From Clostridia bacterium (GTDB taxonomy: Bacteria > Bacillota > Clostridia > UMGS1810): a stretch of DNA of 64,000 nucleotides. The notes below the pieces were generated by a model. The model saw only the letters and a program-made list of their open reading frames with translations. It searched no databases and was not told where the DNA came from. A program made the position numbers and the translations under genes. The stretch lies in assembly GCA_017502845.1 (NCBI GenBank), contig JAFVUE010000004.1, positions 62,001 through 126,000 of the forward strand, in the 5' to 3' direction. Positions 32,361 to 34,771 of the stretch are shown piece after piece (the first letter of the stretch is position 1; each line of letters begins with the position of its first letter).

Positions 32361-33128
32361 TTATTGTTTTTTTATTACTCTGCGGTAGACTTTAAGCAGA
32401 CAGGAAATAATGTAAGCGAAAAGCGGTACCTGAACAAAATCGGGAATTAGTCGGGGGATATAAACCGCCCAGAACGGGAGACGAGCAAGTCCCGTATAGT
32501 AAAAGCGCAATACGAATGTATTAAGTGTTGTAACCATTATGTCGGAAATAAAGATCGTAAGTACAAGTTGCAGAAAATCGTCGTTGTAGGAAGATGGGGA
32601 TTTCTTTTTCATAATCAGGTCGATTATAACGAAGATGATTCCCAGAAGTGATGTTATGTACATACCGTATGTGGCAAATACTAGATTTTCTTTAAGTCGC
32701 AGGAGAATATCATGCCATACACCCTGCTTGACAACGCCCAGAATATAGTGGTTGTATCCGCCGAAAACTGCAAGTGCTATGCAGAACGCTATAAACCCAA
32801 TCCGAAGTTTTGATGAAGAAACTTTTTTCATCCATTTCCACATAAAACCTGTTATGAATCCGCCCAATACCATTACAAAAAATATTGGCCAGAGGTATGC
32901 GCCCTCGGATTTGATTATCTGCGCAAGGAGGTCAACAAGTCCCGATGTGATACCGCCGAATACAGGCCCGAAAAGGATTGCGGGCATCTTGGTAAAAACC
33001 TCCGAAACGCCTATTCGCATACCGTTTGCTCCGCCCATGGGAATCATAAACGAGAACTGCCTCAACACAAGCGCCAATGCGATAAAAAGGGCTGTGTGTA
33101 CCACTTGTTTAAGGTGTGTGTTTTTCAT
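32361..33128 (-). CDS. ECF transporter substrate-binding (S) component, probably for folate
   Basis: 255 residues, six hydrophobic segments, and an N-terminal helix with the ECF S-component pattern (ALFIALALVLRQFSF followed by a MGGANGMRIGVSEVF loop). FolT proteins of Clostridia look like this, and a THF riboswitch directly upstream names tetrahydrofolate as the ligand, so folate uptake with a shared EcfAAT module is the likely role. The ECF module itself is not in the window. A GAGGAG ribosome site lies eight bases before the ATG. Confidence 0.85.
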   Translation of the reverse strand: MKNTHLKQVVHTALFIALALVLRQFSFMIPMGGANGMRIGVSEVFTKMPAILFGPVFGGITSGLVDLLAQIIKSEGAYLWPIFFVMVLGGFITGFMWKWMKKVSSSKLRIGFIAFCIALAVFGGYNHYILGVVKQGVWHDILLRLKENLVFATYGMYITSLLGIIFVIIDLIMKKKSPSSYNDDFLQLVLTIFISDIMVTTLNTFVLRFYYTGLARLPFWAVYIPRLIPDFVQVPLFAYIISCLLKVYRRVIKKQ

Positions 33129-33183
33129 AAAAAAAGCTCCTCTCTAAAAAACAGAGAAAGCAACCTTTGAAGCATATTAAAAT

Positions 33184-33526
33184 GCAACAGCGGATGAAGC
33201 ATTGCACCGCAAGAAAGAAGCAGATGCGTTAATATCCAAACCCGTTTTGGGCATCGGTTTTTCCGCCGCTGCTTTGTTAAAATACTCGCAAATGCGTCAA
33301 GCATTAGCTCCGTTTTTGCCTCGCATCGACGACAAAAACTCAATGCCGAAAATCTGCGACCTAAATCAAGATAAAATTGGATGTTTTCAAGAACTATAAC
33401 AAAGAAAACGGATTTTACTTGATTCAGGCGAGTTTGGACACTAACGCATCTGCTTTTTGTTTTTCTTTTCGTTTTCAGACTCTACTCCCATTCTGAAACA
33501 CTTAACGCACAATGACTGCTCTGTTC
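33184..33526 (-). promoter_or_regulatory. Tetrahydrofolate (THF-I) riboswitch with an insertion in P4
   Basis: On the minus strand the conserved elements appear in order: GAGCAG, GCGTTAAGTG, AATGGGA in a loop closed by TTTCAG / CTGAAA (P3), ACGAA, P4 arm AAGAAA, then after an inserted element TTTCTT, GCGGTG, and CATCCGCTGTT pairing with AACAG to close P1; P2 is CATTGTGC with GCGGTGCAATG. This is the class I THF aptamer that controls folT genes. The aptamer is split by a 234-base element between the P4 arms. The expression platform between 33183 and the start codon at 33128 may mask the GAGGAG site; no simple terminator was seen. Confidence 0.85.
33220..33453. mobile_element. 234-bp MITE-like element with 24-bp inverted ends inside the riboswitch
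   Basis: The ends are GCAGATGCGTTAATATCCAA and, in inverse, GCAGATGCGTTAGTGTCCAA; 21 of 24 terminal bases agree. The interior has no reading frame of convincing design. No clear target duplication was found at the borders. It lies exactly between the two arms of P4. Confidence 0.6.
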
Positions 33527-33570
33527 GTATTTGGTGTGTGCACAATATCGCACTCACTCTTATAACCAAT

Positions 33571-33599
33571 ATTATACTCCCTACCCATACTCTTGTCAA
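33571..33599 (-). promoter_or_regulatory. Consensus promoter of the THF riboswitch transcript
   Basis: Minus strand TTGACA (33599-33594), 17 bases, TATAAT (33576-33571), placed to start transcription about 40 bases before the aptamer. Confidence 0.85.
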
Positions 33600-33608
33600 C
33601 TAAAATAC

Positions 33609-33637
33609 TTGCGAATAAGGCGGAAATATAGTATAAT
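33609..33637 (+). promoter_or_regulatory. Promoter upstream of hydE
   Basis: TTGCGA, 17 bases, TATAAT. It lies back to back with the riboswitch promoter. Confidence 0.6.
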
Positions 33638-33655
33638 AATTTTATTCGATGACGT

Positions 33656-33746
33656 GTAGGGAACGCATTAATGCGTTCCGTCTGTTTGCTTGAATTGCAT
33701 TATCTTACGAATAATAACACGGGACGTCGAGGACGCCGTCCCCTAC
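33656..33746. repeat. Inverted pair of GTAGGG-family palindromes
   Basis: A plus-sense copy at 33656-33681 (stem GGAACGCATT / AATGCGTTCC) and an inverted copy at 33719-33746 (stem GGGACG...CGTCCC, ending CCCCTAC). Both are in the leader of hydE, which is otherwise empty. Confidence 0.75.
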
Positions 33747-33793
33747 AATGCGGTGTCATATATTGAGAATAATCTCACGAAAGGCGGGTGCTT

Positions 33794-34771
33794 ATGAAAA
33801 AACAGGAATTACAATTTGATGATATTTGCAGTTTGCTTGATATAAATAATTCTGCAGACGAACTTTATGCACTTGCTGATGAGATAACAAAGGAAACCAA
33901 AGGCAACACCGTAAATGTCCGGGGGATTATAGAGTTTTCCAATTACTGCAACAGGAACTGTGCCTATTGCGGACTTAATTGCCACAATACTACCCTTGGC
34001 AGATACAGAATGTCACCCGATGAGATTATCGAAACTGCCCTTGAAGCATCGGATGCAGGGTACAAGACAGCAGTTCTGCAAGGCGGTGAAGATCCCTGGT
34101 TTACTGCGGATGTGTTCTGCCATATTATTAAAGAAATAAAATCTAAAAGAGATATCGCAATCACACTCAGCGCAGGAGAAATGAGCGAGGAAGATTACGC
34201 CGCAATACGGAAAGCAGGTTGCGACAGATACCTTTTGAAGCACGAAACAACGGATAAGGATATTTACAGTAAACTCCACCCCGGTTACAATATTGATGAC
34301 CGTCTCAATTGCCTCCGCACTTTGAAACGGCTTGGGTTTGAAACAGGTGGCGGATTTATGATAGGACTTCCTGAACAAACAGCGAAAACCATTGCAAACG
34401 ACTTGCTTTTTATAAAATCCGTTCCCTGCGATATGGCAGGTATCGGGCCATTTATTCCGCACCCCGAAACACCTCTTAAGGGGTGTGATTCGGGCAGTAC
34501 AGAACTTACACGCCGTGCCGTGGCAATTGCAAGGATTCTTCTTCCTGATATAAACTTACCTGCCACCACATCATTGGGCGTTATTGATAAGGAAGAGCGA
34601 AACAAGGTTTTCAGCGGCGGAGCGAATGTTATTATGAAAAAGGTTACTCCCGAAAAGTACAGAAAACTTTATGAGATTTACCCCGTAAACCACGGCAAAA
34701 TCAAATCCGTGGCCGAGGAGAGGGCAGAGATAAATGAGTTACTTGCGTCCATTGGAAAGGAGTGGGATTGA
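33794..34771 (+). CDS. hydE: [FeFe] hydrogenase maturase HydE
   Basis: 325 residues. ATG 33794 is chosen over a GTG two codons earlier. Radical SAM CxxxCxxC motif CNRNCAYCG (about 52-59); the sequence around it (IIEFSNYC), LQGGEDPWFT, the LKHETTD motif and the C-terminal GANVIMKKVTPEKYRK agree with HydE. The enzyme helps build the diiron subcluster of [FeFe] hydrogenase. It is followed by hydF with one base between; hydG and the hydrogenase itself are not in the window. Confidence 0.95.
   Translation: MKKQELQFDDICSLLDINNSADELYALADEITKETKGNTVNVRGIIEFSNYCNRNCAYCGLNCHNTTLGRYRMSPDEIIETALEASDAGYKTAVLQGGEDPWFTADVFCHIIKEIKSKRDIAITLSAGEMSEEDYAAIRKAGCDRYLLKHETTDKDIYSKLHPGYNIDDRLNCLRTLKRLGFETGGGFMIGLPEQTAKTIANDLLFIKSVPCDMAGIGPFIPHPETPLKGCDSGSTELTRRAVAIARILLPDINLPATTSLGVIDKEERNKVFSGGANVIMKKVTPEKYRKLYEIYPVNHGKIKSVAEERAEINELLASIGKEWD

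Follow-up and report, generated by a model that had tools for sequence, protein, structure and literature searches.

A MITE of a probably TA-targeting family, predicted to extend P4 of a THF-I riboswitch that precedes a folate ECF transporter gene

A stretch of 64,000 nucleotides from the MAG of an uncultured Clostridia bacterium of the gut (contig JAFVUE010000004.1; here called the window) holds, on its minus strand, a THF-I riboswitch whose P4 loop is split by a MITE, as confirmed by sequence comparison. We put the probability at roughly 0.72 that this TA-targeting element, lying in a riboswitch that controls a folate ECF gene, folds as an extension of P4 and leaves the junction free.

The features of the locus are listed in Table 1. 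Because the promoter lies upstream of the aptamer, the element must be transcribed through; the promoter arrangement is the same in the same-genus genome G001. The aptamer sits in the leader of a folate gene whose same-genus orthologues also carry the riboswitch. The gene product matches TIGR04518 with an E value of 6e-15 and 55.3 bits (curated cut-off, 60) and PF12822 above the cut-off, and the G001 and G002 orthologues are 64% identical to it. The SD-sequestering hairpin and its T7 tract stand directly before the start codon (33128), similar hairpins are found in relatives, and CTCTGTT of the platform (33156-33150) has an alternative partner in AACAGAG of P1 (33525-33519). On the plus strand, a strong hairpin (GGAACGCATTAATGCGTTCC, 33660-33679) followed by T-rich sequence is located between the folT promoter and a divergent gene at 33788.

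Table 1. Features of the interrupted riboswitch locus (window coordinates)
Feature	Positions	Strand	Basis
Sigma-70 type promoter, TTGACA-17-TATAAT	33571-33599	minus	12 of 12 consensus matches; upstream of the aptamer
5' half of the THF aptamer	33455-33525	minus	5'-half model (86.1 bits, partly by construction); alignment; 47 of 47 invariant columns
Parts of the 5' half: P1 5' strand AACAG, P2 5' strand, core GCGTTAAGTG, P3-L3, ACGAA, P4 5' strand AAGAAA		minus	
MITE, 236 bp, in the P4 loop	33219-33454	minus	Other copies in own and related genomes
First transcribed inverted end (AGCAGATGCGTTAGTGTCC...)	33429-33454	minus	Pairs with the other end at 0.99-1.00
Second transcribed inverted end, holding TTAACGCA (33232-33225)	33219-33244	minus	Inverted repeat and pairing computations
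3' half of the THF aptamer	33186-33218	minus	Column alignment with relatives; invariant columns; covariation
Parts of the 3' half: P4 3' strand TTTCTT, GCGGTGCAATG (P2 3' strand), receptor CATCCGC, P1 3' strand CTGTT		minus	
Expression platform: SD-sequestering, terminator-like hairpin GCTTTCTCTG...AGAGAGGAGC, then T7	33136-33161	minus	MFE structure
Folate-family ECF transporter S component (folT-like), 255 aa	32361-33128	minus	TIGR04518; PF12822; orthologues

Because of the insertion, the full RF01831 model scores the locus at 21.9 bits, below its gathering score of 36, and wrongly fills in the 3' half with part of the element; a search of the 820-kb MAG with this model returned no THF match. 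GibS, mir-3660, Poribacteria-1, and CRISPR-DR35, which also gave low Rfam scores at the locus, were far under threshold and were rejected. A model of the 5' half only (61 positions, built from 17 aptamers, with the window as one row, so that the window's own score is partly by construction) gave 86.1 bits at 33525-33465, and the true 3' half (33218-33186) was placed by column-by-column alignment with relatives. With the flanks fused, the aptamer conforms to each of the 47 columns that are invariant in 15 intact relatives, keeps every conserved core, L3, and receptor nucleotide of THF-I, and forms 24 of the 24 tested pairs of P1, P2, P3, and P4. Covariation in the alignment points the same way: 94.8% of cells are paired, 18 of 24 pairs changed on both sides (none of 500 shuffles was as high), the cells changed on both sides number 78 versus 21.9 in shuffles, and paired cells fall to 35-44% in slid registers. 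A misassembly at a repeat is unlikely, given that no other copy is the same as this one and that the two flanks belong together in a single aptamer. The preliminary description, made from the letters alone, had seen conserved aptamer parts on both sides of an element inserted in P4, and the joined halves bear it out in both respects; the match to the THF model that it had expected was obtained for the separate halves but not for RF01831 as a whole.

Comparison of copies sets the ends of the element at 33219 and 33454 (AGCAGATG...CATCTGCT; AGCAGATGCG...CGCATCTGCT), so that the inverted-ended element first placed at 33220-33453 (234 bases) is there but was drawn one base short per side. Its inverted repeat arms (33215-33244 and 33429-33458) are 87% complementary and constitute the only inverted repeat reported in 32900-33800; the ORFs that overlap it encode only 65 and 72 aa, and no transposase gene lies inside. 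The own genome, one incomplete MAG (820 kb, 71.7% complete), yielded the other copies that the preliminary description had proposed to look for: a second full copy with 273 bp between its ends, a 170-bp copy with an internal deletion, and partial copies. The window copy is unlike any other (93% over half, 80% over all). Element relatives were found in 17 of the 98 genomes searched (own and 16 others), with dozens of copies in relatives, the full ones mostly about 274 bp long. Nearly all of the ~85 ends retrieved with a 28-base end pattern start with TA, and most other full copies have TA on both sides, among them those in L002, L003, L093, L094, and L102. TA at both borders is the mark of TA-targeting transposition of the IS630/Tc1-mariner type. 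By its terminal inverted repeats, its several copies at unrelated places, and the TA targets of other copies, the element is a non-autonomous MITE of a probably TA-targeting family, and its earlier label as MITE-like was apt. The DDE_3 transposase (PF13358) is absent from the 72% complete own MAG, and a 2.7-kb interval between two element ends in G006 holds ordinary genes and no transposase. The window copy lacks an internal stretch, and its flanks are GA (33217-33218) and TT (33455-33456) in place of the TA seen at other copies; the loss of TA on both sides suggests that the insertion is not recent, although it is no proof of selection on the aptamer. The own genome also contains a second MITE family with ends AGCCGAAAGAGAATAATCCGAACC (L004 1345-1619, L007 from 1448, and L008 1445-1723), whose inner core (CTTTGTTAAAATACTCG...) is common with the riboswitch element; in L008, the copy closely precedes another ORF resembling a membrane protein gene.

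The site appears empty in the two same-genus genomes compared, a goat-rectum Clostridia MAG and an Oscillospiraceae MAG (G001 and G002). Both have uninterrupted THF aptamers before the orthologous gene (100 and 114 nt; 57 and 56 bits, over the cut-off), with a short P4 and no element; a long P4 shared by all relatives, without inverted ends, had been named at the outset as one observation that would speak against an insertion. Outside P4, the joined window aptamer and that of G001 are the same at 77 of 83 aligned columns. Supposing that TA served as the target, P4 before the insertion would have been AAGAAA-AACAAUA-UUUCUU, with 6 bp in the stem and 7 nt in the loop.

In the MFE structure of the whole leader, P2, P3, and P4 are present and the entire element is stacked on P4. 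This and the following values come from thermodynamic folding, which models neither the L3-receptor pseudoknot nor the ligand nor true kinetics. In the ensemble of the isolated aptamer, the mean pair probability of P2 is 0.95 with the element and 0.93 without it, and it is likewise 0.95 with the inverted ends only or with the element turned round. Control inserts behave differently: the mean is 0.36 for 100 dinucleotide-shuffled inserts and 0.35 for 100 random window stretches of equal length, with 4% and 6%, respectively, reaching the natural value, so that about 95% of shuffled or random 236-nt inserts disturb the aptamer. The cost of forming P1, P2, and P3 follows the same pattern (1.55 kcal/mol for the natural insert and 1.50 without an insert versus control means of 3.7 and 5.4). 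Keeping both ends and shuffling the middle always preserved the aptamer. The worst case was the second transcribed arm kept alone (mean P2, 0.06); this arm disrupts the aptamer when its partner is shuffled, because its UUAACGCA / TTAACGCA is the exact complement of UGCGUUAA / TGCGTTAA in the conserved core (33509-33502). The element is thus predicted to carry both poison and antidote, the partner arm neutralizing the core-complementary one, and the insert would be tolerated because it is self-complementary. In the growing transcript, the arms pair at 0.99-1.00 once both exist and the mispair between core and arm stays at 0.00. The antiterminator AACAGAG/CUCUGUU reaches 0.87 with the element and 0.85 without it and is lost when the SD hairpin is complete; in step-wise folding, aptamer and antiterminator values are nearly equal in the two cases. 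MFE and ensemble folding thus favor the earlier proposal that the folded inverted ends lengthen P4, and folding and conservation are what support its suggestion that the switch may still work; by these models, function is likely to have been retained.

THF riboswitches bind folate at the loop-receptor site and at the three-way junction, and the loop-receptor site matters more (PMC6614920). In the mechanism that we propose, the MITE would have inserted into the P4 hairpin loop of a THF-I riboswitch controlling the folate ECF transporter gene, and its inverted ends would pair in the transcript, turning the element into a long hairpin on top of the 6 bp of P4 that were kept. Both sites of folate binding, the three-way junction and the L3-receptor contact, would stay free. 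Without ligand, the P1 5' strand AACAGAG would pair with CUCUGUU and block the SD hairpin; folate binding would stabilize P1, thereby freeing CUCUGUU, so that the SD-sequestering, terminator-like hairpin could form and the gene would be turned down.

The insertion might instead have broken or weakened the switch through slow or wrong folding, early termination, or lost affinity, leaving the gene constitutive or off and the core kept merely for lack of time. Synthesis of the 3' half is indeed delayed by 236 nt through the element, and in a growing transcript ending at 33292 the core is paired at 0.97 through short-lived contacts with portions of the element. The polymerase could also be slowed by a stable hairpin with UUCUUUCUU behind it, and the lone arm is complementary to the core. 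However, the P2-P4 pairs and each of the 47 invariant positions have been preserved despite the lost TA and the divergence from the sister copies, the coding strand of the element showed no terminator-like site, and equilibrium folding is unchanged by the element, so we regard a broken switch as unlikely. A role of the element itself in the leader, by which an RNase III cut of the long hairpin or a polymerase pause would give a two-piece aptamer or altered kinetics, seems to us very improbable. RNase III cuts long near-perfect duplexes, and the element forms one (free energy of the aptamer, -118 kcal/mol with it versus -19 without it); the halves, once cut, would remain held by P1, P2, and P4. 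Yet the same element elsewhere does not lie in riboswitches, and nothing points to selection on the element itself. Although arm length differs among relatives (G027, G270, and G230), a long native P4 arm with no mobile element has practically no probability left, being refuted by the copies in the own genome and 16 others, besides the short P4 of the same-genus relatives.

Beyond the insertion of the MITE into the window's aptamer, P4 has been enlarged in other THF riboswitches. Across 391 genomes of the class, RF01831 has matches in 239 and the 5'-half model in 208, and several genomes with a 5' half but no full RF01831 match were inspected. G367, from another family, carries an unrelated 650-nt insertion in a THF P4 loop (between GGAAA and AAAUUCC; L148 480-1226, G367:C1), which holds two direct-repeat copies about 316 nt apart and precedes a folT-family S component gene (TIGR04518, 76.3 bits). 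Its sibling G284 (L149) has an empty 94-nt aptamer, which is identical to that of G367 for 63 nt leading up to the insertion point and for 34 nt past it (three A's shared). In G270, P4 contains tandem repeats, and in G027 it is a long arm. Thus P4 has repeatedly grown or taken up inserts, as would be predicted from the fact that riboswitches in general accept variable insertions (PMC2258182). The earlier assessment of the insertion as rare is tempered by this second long insertion in the same loop and by the natural variation of P4 length. It is tempting to speculate that the THF P4 is a natural docking site for foreign DNA in which self-neutralizing elements persist, and that here the hairpin retunes a working switch by a slowed 3' half or a two-piece cut, but we consider this extended idea doubtful at best.

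Two other kinds of leader were encountered. L140 (G148) is a decaying THF leader (P1 5' strand CAGAAC) before a folT-like gene and, unlike the window, looks like a dead copy. THF-like leaders missed by RF01831 occur at L136 303-410 (G004) and, on the minus strand, at L152 89-182, L154 1503-1592, L155 1475-1568, and L156 1471-1564, the last four from one genus of another family. They keep P1, P3-L3 (AAUGGGAGUAGAGU), and the CAUCCGCUG receptor, but the three-way-junction core GCGUUAAGUG/ACGAA is gone and an extra hairpin has taken its place; folT-family genes come next in at least G004, L154, and L156. By sequence, these leaders are possibly a natural one-site THF riboswitch.

The window's riboswitch shares with known THF-I members (RF01831) P1-P4, the invariant core, L3 and receptor, and the place upstream of a folate ECF transporter gene, but it differs in the 236-nt mobile element in the P4 loop and in scoring under the Rfam gathering score. 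Like the variable insertions described by Barrick and Breaker in 2007 (PMC2258182), which are long unconserved stem-loops at specific sites, the insert leaves the core undisturbed; in contrast to these, its origin is identified as a multicopy transposable element with element-free sister species. The BOX element of the pneumococcal trp operon (PMC3049150) is likewise a co-transcribed MITE-like repeat whose neighboring riboswitches seem still to work, but it lies between two T-box riboswitches, whereas the window's element is inside one aptamer, in a hairpin loop. The short inverted-repeat form and the TA borders of other copies resemble those of IS630/Tc1-mariner-derived MITEs, although this family had no transposase partner in the searches of the own 72% complete MAG and the G006 interval. 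For a mobile element inside an aptamer, nothing closer than the BOX/T-box case and a general remark about variable insertions turned up in the open-access literature, and priority is not claimable. The riboswitch class, the kind of element, and the tolerant site are thus known, and riboswitches are known to accept variable insertions; judged by the open literature searched, the new points are the traceable origin of an insert inside an aptamer, its self-neutralizing property, and a second independent case. The results suggest that covariance-model searches miss such interrupted riboswitches. With its sister copies and element-free sister species, the locus provides a clean natural case in which a transposable element becomes a peripheral riboswitch domain, and it suggests a source for riboswitch "variable insertions" and a reason why palindromic elements can survive in structured RNA.
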